From NCBI GenBank assembly GCA_021234155.1, contig JAJEKV010000016.1:20152441-20216440 (forward strand): a stretch of 64,000 nucleotides of DNA. Reading direction: 5' to 3'. A model generated the notes under the pieces. That model saw only the letters and a list, made by a program, of their open reading frames with translations, made no database searches and was not told the DNA's origin. The first letter of the stretch is position 1. Every line of letters begins with the position of its first letter. The DNA comes from Isoetes taiwanensis (Eukaryota > Streptophyta > Lycopodiopsida > Isoetales > Isoetaceae). Below are positions 36,374 to 56,320 of this stretch, in pieces. Made by a program: the position numbers and the translations under genes.

Positions 36374-37210
36374 TTACGCCAATTTCAAAGGTGGAAAAGT
36401 TCTGAACATCCATTCTGGCATGAATTCCCAGTTGCAGTGTCCAATGCAATTCAAAAAGACTAATACAACGGTGTAAACGTAGAGGAGCCCAATTGAAAAA
36501 ATTCCTAAAAGACTTGCACAGATGTAGGGCGATTCAAAAAGCAAGGCGTAGGCAATATGCTCAGCAAATGGATGGACATTTCCTGCAATTTGAACAAAGG
36601 GTGTAAATAACAGCCCAACTTGACAACTTTTACACCAACTAAGATTAAACCCATCACCTGTCACAGCTTCTGTTAGAAAAGAGGAGTGATGATGAGAATG
36701 ATATCTGGTGTATAAATAATGGTGATGCAGCAGCCGATGAAACCAATAATATATGAACTCTGTCGGGCCTATATGGTAGAAAAATGCAAACACAAAACCG
36801 GCCGAGTTCCAGGCAGGAAAGTAATTAAAGTAATTTGTGCACTCGTGGAATCCGCAGAACATTAGACAATCCAATAGGATATAATCTTCCCTGTAATGAA
36901 ATGAAGCAAAAAGAGAGAACGTAGTGTTAGACATTTTTATCCAAATAGAGTAATAACAGAGTAATGCCAAGACGAATAATGACAGAGTAATGGCGAAACA
37001 GTGGATCAGCTTTGGCAAAACAATGTGTACCAGTTGCTTTCTCTGTCCAGCTGATCAAACTTCATTCCTTTAAGCTGAATCTGATGCTTATCGACCACTC
37101 CTCTAAGGCGTGTGACAGACATCCAAATCTGGCCATGGAGGTACTGTAATGCCTCCGCCAAAGAAATTGGTATGAATTGCTTTCACTATGAACGGAACAT
37201 AGAGAGCATA
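36374..37210 (-). pseudogene. Captured CER1/CER3-like (fatty acid hydroxylase superfamily) fragment
   Basis: CER1 and CER3 are ER membrane proteins with His-box di-iron-type domains that make alkanes for cuticular wax. Three minus-strand exons are seen. 37,210-37,031 contains LYVPFIVKAIHTNFF, then, one frame over, LQYLHGQIWMSVTRL and MKFDQLDRESNW. 36,890-36,658 contains IGPTEFIYYWFHRLLHHHYL and YHSHHHSS. 36,582-36,374 contains HPFAEHIAYALLFE and GHCNWEFMPE. The 75-nt intron 36,657-36,583 is in frame. Compared with the family, exon one has lost about 17 codons at GGG/LQYLHG with a frame change. The sequence ends at FPPLK, before the last His box and the whole C-terminal half. This is therefore a dead fragment. 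The start exon was not found. Confidence 0.8.
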
Positions 37211-40806: not shown

Positions 40807-40976
40807 TACGTGGCATAAATTAGTATGTTTGACGTTTGATTTTATAGGTGTGCACCCCACATGTTAAGTCAAGAATTGTGCCAAACTATGAATCATTTGT
40901 CAATACCCATTTTTGAATAAATTGTCATCTCTATTATTGTCTAGGTTGAAGACTGTTCCAATACTATCCTATTTAA
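40807..40976 (+). promoter_or_regulatory. Promoter elements of Hog gene A: ACGTGGC box and TATA box
   Basis: TATTTAA at 40,970-40,976 lies 39-45 nt before the start codon, so the 5' UTR must be very short. TACGTGGC at 40,807-40,814 has the core of a plant ABRE/G-box. Both are kept at the same distance in units B and C. Confidence 0.45.
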
Positions 40977-41014
40977 GAAGCCCCCCTTGCACATAAGCCC
41001 ACAAATCCTCAACA

Positions 41015-42293
41015 ATGGCGCGGGCTATAGCATTATGCTTCTCCTTGTTCATCTCTTTCATGTTAGCCCATGGCTTGCTCAAGTCACCTCCTCCACCTAA
41101 CTCTCCTCCTCCTCCTCCACCACCTGACTCTCCTCCTCCTCCTCCACCACCTGACTCTCCTCCTCCCCCACCCATCACTCCCCCTCCACCACCTCCCCCT
41201 GATTCCCCTCCTCCGCCTTCTACTATTCCTCCACCTCCTCCACCTTCTACTATTCCTCCACCTCCTCCCCCACTCACTACTTCCCCTCCTCCACCTTCTC
41301 CTCCCCCACCACCTCCTAGTAAAGAAGTTTGTTTTCCAGGTGAGCATATAAATGATGTTTCCTTTGATAAAGTCTCAGTTAGGATGTTACTAATACACTT
41401 GTCCAAAATCTAGGTGATGCTTTGGTGCAAATGATGAATGGTGGGAAGAAAGCAATGAGAGATCTTGAAGTTGGTGATAAGGTATCTAACAATTATGATA
41501 ATATAAAGGCACATTCTTACTAATATCTTTCGTTTAGGTGGCTGTATTCGCTGAGGATGAAAAGATTCTTTATGGTGATATTTATGCATTTGGCCATAAG
41601 GATCCAAATACCTTTAGTGAATTTTTAAGGATAAGCCTTAAAAGTCGTAACATATCTTCTACTTATTATGCCATTGAGCTCACAACTCTTCATTTTGTGC
41701 CAATTATGGAAGGTATCCATTGTTCCAACTTATTATCTTTCATAATACTACCTATCTCATGGTGTTTGTAAAAAAATAGATGTGCATCAAGGTCTTAAAG
41801 ATAAGTGTGCACAAGATATTAGGATCGGTGATACTATGTGGAATATGGAAAACTCATCCTTGGAAGTCATCGGTAAACTCTTAGCTTGAAAACATTGTTA
41901 AGTTTTTGCTGACATTGATAGTGTCATGTTCTTGCAGACATTTCTAGAGTGTGGAAGCAAGGGTTATATAATCCCCTCACAATGGATGGAACCATAATGG
42001 TGAATGATGTCCTAGCATCTGTTCATAGTGAATGGTTCCTCGATCATATATTTGATGCATTTGGTATAACCTCATTGCTTCCACTTGCATATCAAGTAAT
42101 TCTAACTCCTCTACGTGCTTTATATTGCGTCCTTGGCAAGCACAACTATGTGTCTATCTATAATAGGGTGGATTTGATGTTGGATGTGGCCAGCTTTGGC
42201 ACTAGATATGGAGGGACCATGGCCATTGCCACTGCCACTGTTGCGGGTTTTGTGTCTACGTTTATGATCTCTAACTACAATAAACGTGAATAG
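41015..42293 (+). CDS. Secreted extensin-like protein with C-terminal Hedgehog-type Hint (Hog) domain, copy A
   Basis: My five-exon model is 41,015-41,339, 41,414-41,481, 41,538-41,712, 41,780-41,872 and 41,938-42,293. All introns are GT-AG and phases agree, giving 338 residues. Residues 1 to about 20 are a signal peptide. Residues 23 to about 103 are SerPro3-7 repeats of the extensin glycomodule type. Then comes the Hint domain: nucleophile block CFPG (Cys at about 106), MRDLEVGDKV, LYGDIYAFGHKDP, the TxxH box in ELTTLHF, and GLYNPLTMDGTIMVNDVLAS, which matches the closing block of Hedgehog Hog domains. The C-terminal tail has amphipathic/hydrophobic segments (LTPLRALYCVLG) and a likely membrane helix before the KRE end. 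In animals this fold cleaves before Cys and transfers the N-terminal part to cholesterol. Here residue -1 is Val rather than Gly, and the lipid or nucleophile is unknown. The start is the only ATG that gives a signal peptide and lies just after a TATA box. Confidence 0.88.
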
Positions 42294-42757: not shown

Positions 42758-43029
42758 AGAGAAAGATCTATCATAAGGGTAGACGCATGTTATGGACGAA
42801 AATGGCCAAAGCTATAGCGATGGCAGGGTCTTTTGAACTTTGTTTGATTTAGTTTAAATAAAAAAAAATTATTCTCCATATGGACTTCTGAGGGGAAGCA
42901 ATGTTTGAGCAAATGCTCTTGAATGGATGCCGTAGTTGCGAAGAAAAGCAATCAGCGAGAAAATATTTTACAGGATCAAATTTCCTTTTTGTTTTTGGTA
43001 CTCCCTTAACAATCAAATAGGAATGAAAA

Positions 43030-43433
43030 AGCCTTAAAAGTCGTAACCTGTCTTCTACTTATTATGCCATTGAGCTCACGACTCTTCATTTTGTGCCAAT
43101 TATGGAAGGTATCCATTGTTCCAGCTTATTATCTTTCATAATACTACCTATCTCATGGTGTTTGTAAAAAAATAGATGCGCATCAAGGTCTTAAATATAA
43201 GTGTGCACAAGATATTAGGATCGGTGATACTATGTGGAACATGGAAAACTCATCCTTGGAAGTCATCGGTAAACTCTTAGCTTGAAAACATTGTTAAGTT
43301 GTTGCTGACATTGATAGTGTCATGTTCTTGCAGGCATATCTAGAGTGTGGAAGCAAGGGTTATATAATCCCCTCACAATGGAGGAACCATAACGGTGAAT
43401 GATATCCTAGCATCTGTGGTTCCTCGATCATTT
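43030..43433 (+). pseudogene. 5'-truncated Hog pseudogene downstream of copy A
   Basis: This is homologous to the end of exon 3 (from CCTTAAAAGTCG), intron 3, exon 4, intron 4 and the start of exon 5 of the Hog gene. It lacks the signal peptide, the Pro-rich domain and the catalytic Cys. Exon 5 has a one-base deletion (atggaggaacc for atggatggaacc) and a further small deletion, then the homology stops. It keeps the TxxH box sequence. Confidence 0.85.
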
Positions 43434-44669
43434 TTTTTTTATATAACAACCGATTCAATTGTTTTAGGGGTATATGGTCTATAGTTTCAGGAATTGTTAT
43501 TTTTACATCCATATCAAATCCGCCTGGAACCCCCTGTTATTTTGCTACATATTTATATAAATGTTGTTATATGCCAATTGTGAGATCATTTTGTGGCAGT
43601 TAGGCTATGCTTGCTCGCCTTTTTCTGACAAGAGCTTTACATTTTGTTGTTAGCTTAATATTACTAGTGCTAAGTTGCCCTAGAAACTATAGCCATTATG
43701 CTTGCTTGCAATTCTTTAGTAGGAACTTTATATTTGGTTGTTAACAATGTATAATGGTACGAGTGCCAAGTTGTTGCCCTCATGCTTCAAAATCATGCAC
43801 CCACAAATAAAGAATAGATTCAATTACACCTATGTGCTTCAATAAGGAGAAATGCCACAAATAAGGAGATGTTACTAAGGTACTAGCTAATTTGCAGTCG
43901 TTCCGCCTGCATCGAGAGGGTTGAACAAATAAGTAAGGTTTGACAAATTTAAATGCCATAACATGCAACCCATAAAGGCATTGTACCATAGTTTGCCACA
44001 AATACTTTGTCATTCCATAATCGTTTTTGAACTTTTATAGTGGATGAACCTATCTTATAATGATACTGATACCTATGAGCTTATATTGATACTGATACCT
44101 ATGAGCTAATGGTAACTTACAGACAGTTCAAGATTTGGAGCTGCACATCTTTTCCATATACATAGAGAATAAAATCAACTTTCTTGCTCGTAGATGACTA
44201 TCACTAAAGCTTTCAGCATAAACTGGAAAATGGAATTTAGTTTTTAAAGAAACATAAATCTAGCATGTAATTATAAAAGTGATTACCATGCATCTTTATA
44301 ATGACTTCGGCTCAAGTGATTCCAATGTCATATGAAGGGGGAGTAGAGGAATCATCACCGATTGGCGGGGATTCACGGAATCAACACCACGATAATGAAA
44401 AATGACCGGATGTCTAATTTTGCCATTGCTACTATTTGTATCTCTTCAAAAGGATGGCTTTACAACGTGTGCATATTTGTACCAAATCATTCGCTAATAA
44501 TGCAGACTACACCAATCTTTTCTCATCATTCACACTTAGATTGATAAATGCAAGTATCTTCTTCATTCTAAATATCCCCATAGATTACCAAAGAAAACAT
44601 GACCGACAATACATGCTTTTGCAAAACATTGTTTATAATGTTTCTCTGATTCGGGCTTATGCCCCTCCT

Positions 44670-48034: not shown

Positions 48035-49307
48035 ATGGCGCGGGCTATAGCATTATGCTTCTCCTTGTTCATCTCTTTCATGTTAGCCCATGGCTTGCTC
48101 AAGTCACCTCCTCCACCTAACTCTCCTCCTCCTCCTCCACCCCGACTCTCCTCCTCCTCCTCCACCACGACTCTCCTCCTCCCCCCACCCATCAGTCCCC
48201 CTCCACCACCTCCCCCGATTCCCCTCCTCCCTTCTACTATTCCTCCACCTCCTCCACCTTCTACTATTCCTCCACCTTCTCCCCCACTCACTACTTCCCC
48301 TCCTCCACCTTCTCCTCCCCCACCACCTCCTAGTAAAGAAGTTTGTTTTCCAGGTGAGCATATAAATGATGTTTCCTTTGATAAAGTCTCAGTTAGGATG
48401 TTACTAATACACTTGTCCAAAATCTAGGTGATGCTTTGGTGCAAATGATGAATGGTGGGAAGAAAGCAATGAGAGATCTTGAAGTTGGTGATAAGGTATC
48501 TAACAATTATGATAATATAAAGGCACATTCTTACTAATATCTTTAGTTTAGGTGGCTGTATTCGCTGAGGATGGAAAGATTCTTTATGGTGATATTTATG
48601 CATTTGGCCATAAGGATCCAAATACCTTTAGTGAATTTTTAAGGATAAGCCTTAAAAGTCGTAACATATCTACTACTTATTATGCCATTGAGCTCACAAC
48701 TCTTCATTTTGTGCCAATTATGGAAGGTATCCATTGTTCCAACTTATTATCTTTCATAATACTACCTATCTCATGGTGTTTGTAAAAACATAGATGCGCA
48801 TCAAGGTCTTAAATATAAGCGTGCACAAGATATTAGGATTGGCGATACTATGTGGAGCATGGAAAACTCATCCTTGGAAGTCATCGGTAAACTCTTAGCT
48901 TGAAAACATTGTTAAGTTTTTGCTGACATTGATAGTGTCATGTTCTTGCAGACATTTCTAGAGTGTGGAAGCAAGGGTTATATAATCCCCTCACAATGGA
49001 TGGAACCATAATGGTGAATGATGTCCTAGCATCTGTTCATAGTGAATGGTTCCTCGATCATATATTTGATGCATTTGGTATAACCTCATTGCTTCCACTT
49101 GCATATCAAGTAATTCTAACTCCTCTACGTGCTTTGTATTGCGTCCTTGGCAAGGACAACTATGTGTCTATCTATAATAGGGTGGATTTGATGTTGGATG
49201 TGGCCAGCTTTGGCACTAGATATGGAGGGACCATGGCCATTGCCACTGCCACTGTTGCGGGTTTTGTGTCTACGTTTATGATCTCTAACTACAATAAACG
49301 TGAATAG
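48035..49307 (+). CDS. Secreted Pro-rich protein with Hog (Hint) domain, copy B
   Basis: The exons by homology and splice sites are 48,035-48,353, 48,428-48,495, 48,552-48,726, 48,794-48,886 and 48,952-49,307, giving 336 residues. The signal peptide, CFPG, LEVGDKV, TxxH (ELTTLHF) and GLYNPLT blocks are all kept. Exon 4 differs from copy A (KYKRAQDIRIGDTMWSMEN against KDKCAQDIRIGDTMWNMEN). In the Pro-rich domain two compensating frameshifts turn part of the SPPPP repeats into RLSSSSSTTTLLLPPP, so the released part would differ while the Hog domain stays in frame. The gene appears functional at sequence level. Confidence 0.85.
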
Positions 49308-50033
49308 GTCATTCTATAATTATTCAATACGTATATCCACCAAAGGTTGCCTTGATTGTTAGCAGCCATAATGGTTGGAATAATTAAGAATACATTATTG
49401 TGTAATATCGGCCATAATGGTTATGATTTTTTTTCTTCTCTAAGTCATCAAATAAGCCTCCCAGGCGTGCACCAATCCTTTTCTATTCTTTTTGTTTATC
49501 TTTCCTCGTATACGATGAGACATGAGTTTTATACGTATATGTATGAGATATAAGGGGAGATTATAACCTCTCATATGCTAACTAATCCCCGTTAGTTAGC
49601 TCAATTTTCTTCTTTGCGATGACATGTTTTATGCAGTGAGCATTTTATAAACAATAGTATCAAACCATGAAATCCACATTCAATCCTTGTATCAAGCATT
49701 TTATAAACAATATAGTATCAAAACCATGAAATCCACATTTAATCCTTGTATCAAGCATTAGAGAAAGATCTATGATAAGGGTAGATGCATGTTATGGACG
49801 AAAATGGCCAAAGCTATAGCGATGGCAGGGTCTTTTGAACTTTCTTTGATTTAGTTTATATAAAAAAAAAATTATTCTCCATATGGACTTCTACGGGGAA
49901 GCAATGTTTGAGAAAATGCTCTTGAATGGATGCCGTAGCTGCGAAGAAAAGCAATCAACGAGAAAATATTTTACAGGATCAAATTTCCTTTTTGTTTTTG
50001 GTGCTCCCTTAACAATCAAATAGGAATGAAAAA

Positions 50034-50313
50034 GCCTTAAAAGTCGTAACCTATCTTCTACTTATTATGCCATTGAGCTCACGACTCTTCATTTTGTGCC
50101 AATTATGGAAGGTATCCATTGTTCCAGCTTATTATCTTTCATAATACTACCTATCTCATGGTGTTTGTAAAAAAATAGATGTGCATCAAGGTCTTAAAGA
50201 TAAGTGTGCACAAGATATTAGGATCGGTGATACTATGTGGAATATGGAAAACTCATCCTTGGAAGTCATCGGTAAACTCTTAGCTTGAAAACATTGTTAA
50301 GTTGTTGCTGACA
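50034..50313 (+). pseudogene. 5'-truncated Hog pseudogene downstream of copy B
   Basis: This holds the end of exon 3, exon 4 and part of intron 4 only. Its exon 4 is identical to that of gene A (including 'gtgcatcaaggtcttaaaga') rather than gene B, which points to gene conversion or unequal exchange. Confidence 0.85.
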
Positions 50314-51679
50314 TCAAGGTGGTTAAAAAACGCGTTTTTTATTCATAAAAATCTTGTATAAAAATCCGTACCTACTCTAAAAGATTTTTATGAAATAGGA
50401 TAGCAAAAAAAAAAAAAAAAAATTGCCCCTAATTTTTTTTTGCACCTATGACAACCGATTCAATTGTTTTAGGGATATATGGTCTATGGTTTCAGGAATT
50501 GTTATTTTTACATCCATATCAAATCCCCTTGGAACCCCCTGTTATTTTGCTACATATTTATATAAATGTTGTTATATGCCAATTGTGAGATCATTTTGTG
50601 GCAGTTAGGCTATGCTTGCTCGCCTTTTTCTGACAAGAGCTTTACATTTTGTTGTTAGCTTAATATTACTAGTGCTAAGTTGCCCTAGAAACTATAGCCA
50701 TTATGCTTGCTTGCAATTCTTTAGTAGGAACTTTATATTTGGTTGTTAACAATGTATAATGGTACGAGTGCCAAGTTGTTGCCCTCATGCTTCAAAGTCA
50801 TGCACCCACAAATAAAGAATAGATTCAAGTACACCTATGTGCTTCAATAAGGAGAAATGCCACAAATAAGGAGATGTTACTAGGTACTAGCTAATTTGCA
50901 GTCGTTCCGCCTGCATCCAGAGGGTTGAACTTTATTTGCCACAATGTCTAAAATAAGTAAGGTTTGACAAATTTAAATGCCATAACATGAATGCTATAAC
51001 ATGCAACCCATAAAGGCATTGTACCATAGTTTGCCACAAATATTTTGTCATTCCATAATCTTTTTGGAACTTTTATAGTGGATGAACCTATCTTATAATG
51101 CTACTGATACCTATGAGCTAATGGTAACTTACAGACAGTTCAAGATTTGGAGCTGCACATCTTTCCCATATACATAGAGAATAAAATCAACTCTCTTGCT
51201 CGTAGATGACTATCACTAAAGCTTTCAGCATAAACTGGAAAATGGAATTTAGTTTTTAAAGAAACATAAATCTAGCATGTAATTATAAAAGTGATTACCA
51301 TGCATCTTTATAACAGCTCAGCTCAAGTGATTCCAATGTCATATGAAGGCAGGAGTAGAGGAATCATCACCGTTGGCAGGATTCCTGGAATCAACACCAC
51401 GATAATGAAAAATGACAGATGTCTAATTTTGCCATTGCTACTATTTGTATCTCTTCAAAAAGGATGGCTTTACAACGTGTGCATATTTGTACCAAATCAT
51501 TCGCTAATAATGCAGACTACACCAATCTTTTCTCATCATTCACACTTAGATTGATAAATGCAAGTATCTTCTTCATTCTAAATATCCCCATAGATTACCA
51601 AAGAAAACATGAGCGACAATACATGCTTTTGCAAAACATTGTTTATAATGTTTCTCTGATTCGGGCTTATGCCCCTCCT

Positions 51680-55052: not shown

Positions 55053-56320
55053 ATGGCGCGGGCTATAGCATTATGCTTCTCCTTGTTCATCTCTTTCATG
55101 TTAGCCCATGGCTTGCTCAAGTCACCTCCTCCACCTAACTCTCCTCCTCCTCCTCCTCCACCACCTGACTCTCCTCCTCCTCCTCCACCACCTGACTCTC
55201 CTCCTCCCCCACCCATCAGTCCCCCTCCACCACCTCCCCCGATTCCCCTCCTCCTTCTACTATTCCTCCACCTCCTCCACCTTCTACTATTCCTCCACCT
55301 CCTCCCCCCACTCACTACTTCCCCTCCTCCACCTTCTCCTCCCCCACCACCTCCTAGTAAAGAAGTTTGTTTTCCGGGTGAGCATATAAATGATGTTTCC
55401 TTTGATAAAGTCTCAGTTAGGATGTTAATAATACACTTGTCCAAAATCTAGGTGATGCTTTGGTGCAAGTGATGAATGGTGGAAAGAAAGCAATGAGAGA
55501 TCTTGAAGTTGGTGATAAGGTATCTAACAATTATAATATTATATAAAGGCACATTCTTACTAATATCTTTCGTTTAGGTCGCTGTATTCTCCGAGGATGG
55601 AAAGATTCTCTATGGTGATATTTATGCATTTGGCCATAAGGATCCAAACACCTTTAGTGAACCTTAAAAGTCGTGACATATCTTCTACTCATTATGCCCT
55701 TGAACTCACGACTCTTCATTTTGTGCCAATTATGGAAGGTATCCATTGTTCCAACTTATTATCTTTCATAATACTACCTATCTCATAGTGTTTGTAATAA
55801 AATAGATGCTCATCAAGGTCTTAAATATAAGCGTGCACAAGATATTAGGATCGGTGATATTATGTGGAGCATGGGAAACTCATCCTTGGAAGTCATCGGT
55901 AAACTCTTAACTTGAAAACATTGTTAAGTTGCCGTTGACATTGATTGCGTCATGTTCTTGCAGACATATCTAGAGTGTGGAAGCAAGGGGTTATATAATC
56001 CCCTCACAATGGATGGAACCATAATGGTGAATGATGTCCTAGCATCCGTTCATAGTGAATGGTTCCTCGATCATATATTTGATGCATTTGGTATAACCTC
56101 ATTGCTTCCACTTGCATATCAAGTAATCCTAACTCCTCTACGTGCTTTGTATTGCGTCCTTGGCAAGGACAACTATGTGTCTATCTATAATAGGGTGGAT
56201 TTGATGTTGGATGTGGCCAGCTTTGGCACTAGATATGGAGGGACCATGGCCATTGCCACTGCCAGCTGCTATGGTTTTGTGTCTACGTTTATGATCTCTA
56301 ACTACAATAAACGTGAATAG
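55053..56320 (+). pseudogene. Secreted Pro-rich/Hog gene copy C, inactivated by two frameshifts
   Basis: The exons by homology are 55,053-55,377, 55,452-55,519, 55,578-55,738, 55,806-55,898 and 55,964-56,320. Exon 3 lacks 14 bp present in A and B (after AGTGAA), which gives an immediate TAA. Exon 5 has an extra G in 'aagcaagggg', a second frameshift. The Pro-rich exon also contains a shifted stretch that reads as a Leu-rich run (about residues 61-80) before returning to frame. The signal peptide, CFPG and TxxH codons are still present. The last residues differ (a short 'agctgctat' replacement near 56,263). This is most likely a recent pseudogene. Confidence 0.85.

Follow-up and report, generated by a model that had tools for sequence, protein, structure and literature searches.

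Can a plant gene that joins a secreted, hydroxyproline-rich N-terminus to a Hog domain, the C-terminal part of Hedgehog proteins, release that N-terminus by self-processing and leave a lipid on it? The question is raised by a gene on the forward strand of Isoetes taiwanensis, at positions 41015-42293 of the window, that is, of the whole stretch of 64,000 nucleotides that was analysed. The gene structure, the Hint homology, the conserved catalytic residues, the modular N-termini and the constraint on the Hog domain are directly supported by the data. We put the probability that this locus is best explained by release of a Hyp-rich N-peptide by a sterol-esterifying Hog domain at roughly 0.5.

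Gene structure and identity of the C-terminal domain

The gene encodes a protein of 338 aa in five exons. The sequence-only reading had predicted this model, and it was borne out: all four introns (74, 56, 67 and 65 bp, in order) are GT-AG and the frame is intact. Exon 1 (41015-41339; this and the following limits are based on the spliced translation) begins with a signal peptide-like N-terminus, MARAIALCFSLFISFMLAHG (residues 1-20, 41015-41074), recognised by hydropathy and with an assumed cleavage point. No other 19-mer of the protein is as hydrophobic as residues 4-22 (hydropathy 2.16). An extensin-like Pro-rich domain follows (residues 21-105, 41075-41329), identified by motif count and ending in SKEV. 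Pro makes up 66% of its 85 residues; it contains seven SP3-5 motifs and lacks Tyr. CFPG begins at residue 106, with Val at position -1. According to sequence alignments Cys106 (41330-41332) is Hog Cys1 and the predicted nucleophile, and cleavage would be expected between Val105 and Cys106. Exon 2 (41414-41481), which encodes GDALVQMMNGGKKAMRDLEVGDK, has its first codon split with exon 1. Exon 3 (41538-41712) contains His151 (41595-41597), which is Hog position 46 in the alignments and replaces the Hedgehog general base Asp, and the block B motif TxxH, here TTLH (41682-41693); both are kept in the paralogues. Exon 4 (41780-41872) is followed by exon 5 (41938-42293), with GLYNPLT...GTIMVNDVLAS, a C-terminal region of 88 residues and a hydrophobic stretch near the end. 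Motif J keeps the GTI.VN.VLAS shape and continues as VLASVHSEW (42009-42035), with Val aligned to the Cys of Hedgehog SCYA. Val at -1, CFPG and the other Hint blocks were thus found in the spliced protein as claimed.

The exon 1 donor was GT in 15 of the 15 extensin-type loci tested, and the splice sites recur in paralogues, so the join of exons 1 and 2 is not a chance of this copy. The strict donor pattern failed to recognise three of the 18 extensin-type loci, which were left out of the donor and model check for that reason. These are the third window copy, which keeps the donor GT and has a broken Hog frame, L026, whose Hog frame is also broken, and L009, which is missing the FP codons. The proposed order of signal peptide, Pro-rich domain and Hog domain in a plant gene is supported by hydropathy, the SP3-5 motifs and the Pfam Hint match. 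The N-terminal domain had been called extensin/AGP-like; the SP3-5 motifs favour the extensin-like name, and the AGP-like part of the label is dropped. Extensins are recognised by a signal peptide, here by hydropathy, and at least two SPPP motifs, and the protein has both. The Tyr-X-Tyr cross-link motif, which occurs in some extensins only, is absent from the N-terminal part. A Gly-rich antisense ORF at 40969-41409 was rejected as it merely mirrors the Pro codons of the opposite strand. Contamination is deemed unlikely: the gene contains spliceosomal introns, the scaffold that carries it is 22 Mb long, and its relatives are spread over several scaffolds.

The predicted Hint domain was recovered in Pfam-A as PF01079 (residues 104-252, 99.7 bits, E 2.4e-28, cut-off 29.7 bits). 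The match spans model positions 11-162 of 213, and the sterol-recognition part is unmatched. A Pfam scan of the 338-aa protein to E 1 yielded Hint alone and no Hedge signalling domain, and NCBIfam gave no match at E<=0.01. When the Hog part was searched against PDB with phmmer (E<=1), all four sequences matched were Hedgehog: Sonic hedgehog 7e2i (1.3e-8) and Drosophila Hedgehog 6tyy (5.3e-7), 1at0 (1e-5) and 6td6 (1.3e-4). We then searched PDB at E<=10 with a profile built from six intact Hog domains of the Isoetes genome. Again 4/4 matched sequences were Hedgehog and none was an intein. Over residues 1-145 the E-values were 7.5e-13 for 6tyy, 1.7e-11 for 1at0 and 2.1e-10 for 6td6; the match to 7e2i (1.5e-9) was split in two pieces. 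An earlier profile, one row of which included a few assumed letters, found the same four sequences with matches ending at 145-146. These searches support classification as a Hog-like rather than an intein-like domain. An intein was rejected on the absence of intein chains among the four profile matches, and VWA-Hint (Vint) and bacterial-toxin Hint domains were rejected since Pfam gave Hint alone and the PDB profiles Hedgehog only. In a short-peptide member of the family described below, PT-HINT scored below its Pfam cut-off.

The last 88 residues had no Pfam or PDB match, and no SRR (motifs K and L) was detected in these searches beyond Hog residue 145-147. This region is conserved across the plant subfamilies. 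Near its end lies a hydrophobic 19-mer with a mean hydropathy of 1.41-1.87 in the one member tested per subfamily; it might serve either to anchor the protein in the membrane or to contact sterol. An AlphaFold2 model of exon 5 alone, of low confidence (mean pLDDT 46.8), has helices past motif J and folds the hydrophobic stretch into a pair of strands rather than a membrane helix.

Subfamilies and tandem copies

A protein search yielded 98 exon matches in the genome, in whose assembly the window is on contig C974. Searching with PF01079 instead was weaker, with 18 matches, because exons match singly. The set analysed comprises 30 loci, 27 of them fetched and three being the window copies; three fragments were added later. 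A second genome search listed a few further fragments on C1036, outside the 30 loci.

Exon 1 was read upstream in 26 of the 30 loci, leaving out L025 and the loci L031-L033, which are degenerate in appearance. Three subfamilies were distinguished by their secreted N-terminus, which is extensin-like, a hevein (chitin-binding) domain or about 14 residues long. The extensin type, with a signal peptide and SP repeats, has 18 loci (the three in the window, L007-L020 and L026). The hevein type, on C1036, has six loci with a signal peptide, a hevein-type chitin-binding domain and a Pro/Gly linker. The hevein stretch is readable in four of them (L023, L024, L029 and L030), and L025 and L028 were placed there by their Hog exons. 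In Pfam the hevein-Hog model of L024 matched Chitin_bind_1 (E 4.3e-8) and Hint (E 4.9e-28). The third type, on C1034, has three loci with a signal peptide and some 14 residues, and the L022 model matched Hint at E 2.2e-25. With only these residues between signal peptide and CFPG, L022 and L021 possibly encode a short secreted peptide that would be released by the Hog domain; truncated relatives occur at L045 and L046. The first intron lies in the codon right after CFP in all three subfamilies, and the join between N-terminal part and Hog domain is therefore shared and old. That hevein and short-peptide N-termini occur in sister subfamilies strengthens the proposed modular reading of signal peptide, N-terminal part and Hog domain.

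Intact start-to-stop models were obtained for 6/18 extensin-type, 1/6 hevein-type and 2/3 short-peptide loci, counts that are rough because errors of assembly could account for small indels in the Pro-codon repeats. L007 and L020 were scored as not intact since their exon boundaries were not transferable. In the window, all on the forward strand, the second tandem copy (48035-49307, 336 aa) has an intact start-to-stop frame with its Pro-rich stretch partly in a shifted frame. The third (55053-56320) has a broken Hog frame, in which the lengths of two exons are 161 and 357, against 175 and 356. Two truncated duplicates contain exons 3-5 (43029-43437) and exons 3-4 (50032-50314). The Hog copies ride on tandem units of about 7 kb with 95-96% identity. 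Within 33889-64000 of the window, blocks at 33.9-34.7, 44.3-46.8, 51.4-53.9, 57.0-59.7 and 62.1-64.0 kb recur with 89-96% identity.

The reading frame of the Pro-rich region shifts between copies. The extensin-type locus L012 (C1045:21291500-21294500) has an N-terminal part of 383 residues in which Pro-rich stretches alternate with His/Leu-rich and Ser/Thr-rich ones, which suggests repeated frame changes in Pro-codon repeats. The I. taiwanensis assembly is described as Nanopore-based (PMC8566536), and we infer that the indels in these repeats may partly be errors of such an assembly.

Active site, constraint and predicted processing

In a gapless alignment from Cys1, FGHKD stands here against FMDRN in 1at0, so Hedgehog Asp46 corresponds to His. 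The general base Asp46 is absent from the protein encoded at 41015-42293. His46 and TxxH were each found in 29 of the 30 loci. Neither is seen in L025, where exon 3 gave no match. With a stricter pattern the count for position 46 fell to 28, as L033 was then missed too. Among the six intact Hog domains Cys1, His46, Thr75 and His78 of TxxH, and V140-D151 bar one position are invariant. The Cys of motif J (SCYA) is absent, with SVHS or SAHS instead. Residue -1 is Val in the extensin-type copies and Gly in the hevein and short-peptide copies. Cys1 and TxxH are retained in the sister subfamilies at 44-46% identity.

Asp46 is reported as the general base for sterol attack in Hedgehog (PMC9163320, PMC8529194). 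The same sources describe an engineered D303H (D46H) Drosophila Hint whose structure, pKa and catalysis are retained and whose range of accepted sterols is wider. PDB 6TYY is this mutant (Zhao 2019, via PMC9163320), and it was the best match of our family profile search. Judged by the alignments, these plant Hog domains thus carry natively the residue that chemists had engineered into the Drosophila protein. The precedent is limited in that activity was reported in Hedgehog, which possesses an SRR. The role of position 46 is also described differently in the cited texts: Asp46Ala is said to stop step two and not step one (PMC4695875), whereas a review has both steps coordinated by Asp46 (PMC9163320). 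Conservation of His46 is, because of the latter account, no proof of step two.

Selection on Hog exons 2-5 was estimated from nine extensin-type loci in which these exons are intact, among them L008, L009 and L013, whose exon 1 is faulty. NG86 dN/dS was 0.20-0.63 over the 36 pairs, an estimate biased because only unbroken copies were compared. In 18 pairs across subfamilies dN/dS was 0.25-0.35 and dS 1.4-2.2. Differences summed over the 36 pairs amounted to 911/8272 at third codon positions (0.110) and 759/6684 in introns 2-4 (0.114), against 627/8272 at first and 391/8272 at second positions (0.047). Read with the limits that exons were unbroken, that pairs share history and that values are NG86 estimates, this points to purifying selection on the intact Hog domains.

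Secretion, cleavage, nucleophile, location and purpose are what we infer beyond these data, as follows. The signal peptide would take the precursor into the secretory pathway. The Hog domain, from Cys106 on, would attack the carbonyl of Val105 to give an internal thioester, aided by TxxH; formation of the thioester is likely because Cys1 and TxxH are kept. A hydroxyl nucleophile would then resolve it; the most likely candidate is the 3-hydroxyl group of a (phyto)sterol in the membrane, with His46 as the activating residue. The Hyp-rich N-peptide would be freed with a C-terminal ester and kept at the membrane and wall face. Self-cleavage at Cys106 is likely and a sterol ester on the released peptide plausible. 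The conservation of His46 and of the C-terminal region speaks for a step with a sterol or lipid alcohol. Against a simple copy of Hedgehog stand Val at -1 in the extensin type, the undetected SRR, the lost motif J Cys and the many broken copies. Since the same module follows a hevein domain and a short peptide in the sister subfamilies, the Hog domain might be a general-purpose tail by which small apoplastic pieces are released and tagged.

The thioester could also be resolved by water, a small thiol or an amine, in which case a lipid-free Hyp-rich peptide would result and the hydrophobic C-terminal segment would only anchor the precursor. Isolated Drosophila Hint is reported to undergo the N-S shift and to be cleaved by water and hydroxylamine and not by cholesterol (PMC4695875). 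Such hydrolysis would likewise agree with the failure of the Pfam and PDB profile searches to detect an SRR and with the hydrophobic 19-mer near the C-terminus. The 88-residue region conserved across subfamilies has no obvious need in plain hydrolysis, however, and His46 would be hard to place if position 46 served step two only, as the Asp46Ala result has it; this second argument is weakened because Asp46 is elsewhere said to coordinate both steps (PMC9163320). We regard hydrolysis as rather unlikely. That Cys106 is not processed at all, and that a wall glycoprotein now keeps the Hog-derived part as a folded tail, possibly tethered to the membrane, seems improbable. Val at -1, the lost motif J Cys, His46 and the hydrophobic C-terminal segment would suit such a tail; yet Cys1 and TxxH are kept in the sister subfamilies, with dN/dS near 0.3 across them.

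We consider it more improbable still that the family is decaying, duplicating fast, mostly broken and perhaps unexpressed, with the copy at 41015-42293 intact by recency. The share of loci not intact (12/18 extensin-type, 5/6 hevein-type, 1/3 short-peptide), the broken third window copy and the near-identical tandem units would be expected of decay. Constraint among unbroken copies, a sample biased for that reason, and across the older subfamilies argues against it, and the indels in Pro-codon repeats may partly be Nanopore assembly errors. Returning to sterol-esterifying release, a wider proposal is tentative and in our judgement has less than an even chance: that a lycophyte Hog domain with native His46 cuts secreted wall-directed modules (extensin-like repeats, hevein, short peptides) and joins a plant sterol to their C-termini as an ester. 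Apoplastic glycopeptides and chitin-binding domains would then have a sterol anchor comparable to that provided by GPI, and the general-base swap D46H made in the laboratory would be what nature already uses.

Relation to known Hog proteins and extensins

Mosses, Selaginella and red algae are known to have Hog proteins, and in several of these the N-terminal part is secreted (Buerglin 2008, PMC2362128; PMC13353863), and a sterol-type adduct has already been proposed for Hog proteins by Buerglin (PMC2362128). The earlier statement that no such system had been described therefore holds in part: plant and algal Hogs had been reported, and the joining of Hog with extensin or hevein is unreported in the literature searched. 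That search covered titles and abstract openings of open-licence literature, where neither this joining nor a paper on Hedgehog and Isoetes was found. Within this literature, the extensin-like and hevein wall modules, the size of the lycophyte family and the native His46 are new.

The Hogs of Physcomitrella and Selaginella are likewise land-plant Hogs with the motif J Cys replaced, as it is in red algal Hogs too, and the moss protein has a good signal peptide (PMC2362128). They differ, by description only, in a conserved upstream region reported as unique to them, and their description in that source includes no extensin-like or hevein N-terminal part. Drosophila and vertebrate HhC share Cys1, TxxH and GTI.VN.VLAS with the plant domain, and residues 1-145 are alignable with Drosophila; the plant Hog differs in His for Asp46, the absent SCYA Cys, an undetectable SRR, no Hedge domain and, in the extensin type, Val at -1. 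The engineered D46H Drosophila Hint shares His46 and is reported active; there the residue is engineered, in the plant family it is native. Red algal non-Hh Hogs of Cyanidiophyceae (Kelch with Hog) are also Archaeplastid, multigene and joined to other N-terminal domains, but the partners described are Kelch or trefoil, and the cited text names no extensin or hevein partner (PMC13353863). Short and chimeric extensins (EXTs) share the signal peptide and repeated Ser-Pro3-5 (PMC4769139). Unlike some of these, the plant N-terminal part has no Tyr, and a fusion with Hog is unnamed in that text, in which "other chimeric EXTs" are an open class.

For animal Hedgehog, sterol attachment by Hog has been documented; for other eukaryotes the cited literature only proposes it. 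A plant multigene family with recognisable wall modules offers concrete Hog precursors to test and a natural His46 active site to set beside the engineered version. It also supplies candidates for a non-GPI lipid anchor of wall glycopeptides.

Two minor observations concern other sequences. On the reverse strand of the window, at 36377-37054, lies a membrane protein-like exon with the His-rich boxes HRLLHHH and HSHHH. Its Pfam match to FA_hydroxylase was weak (E 0.0032, below the cut-off) and PDB gave no match; the His-box motif presumably resembles that of plant CER1/WAX2-like wax genes. Among IMG/VR viral contigs, 11 loci (L034-L044) matched the plant Hog profile weakly, at 24-35% identity.
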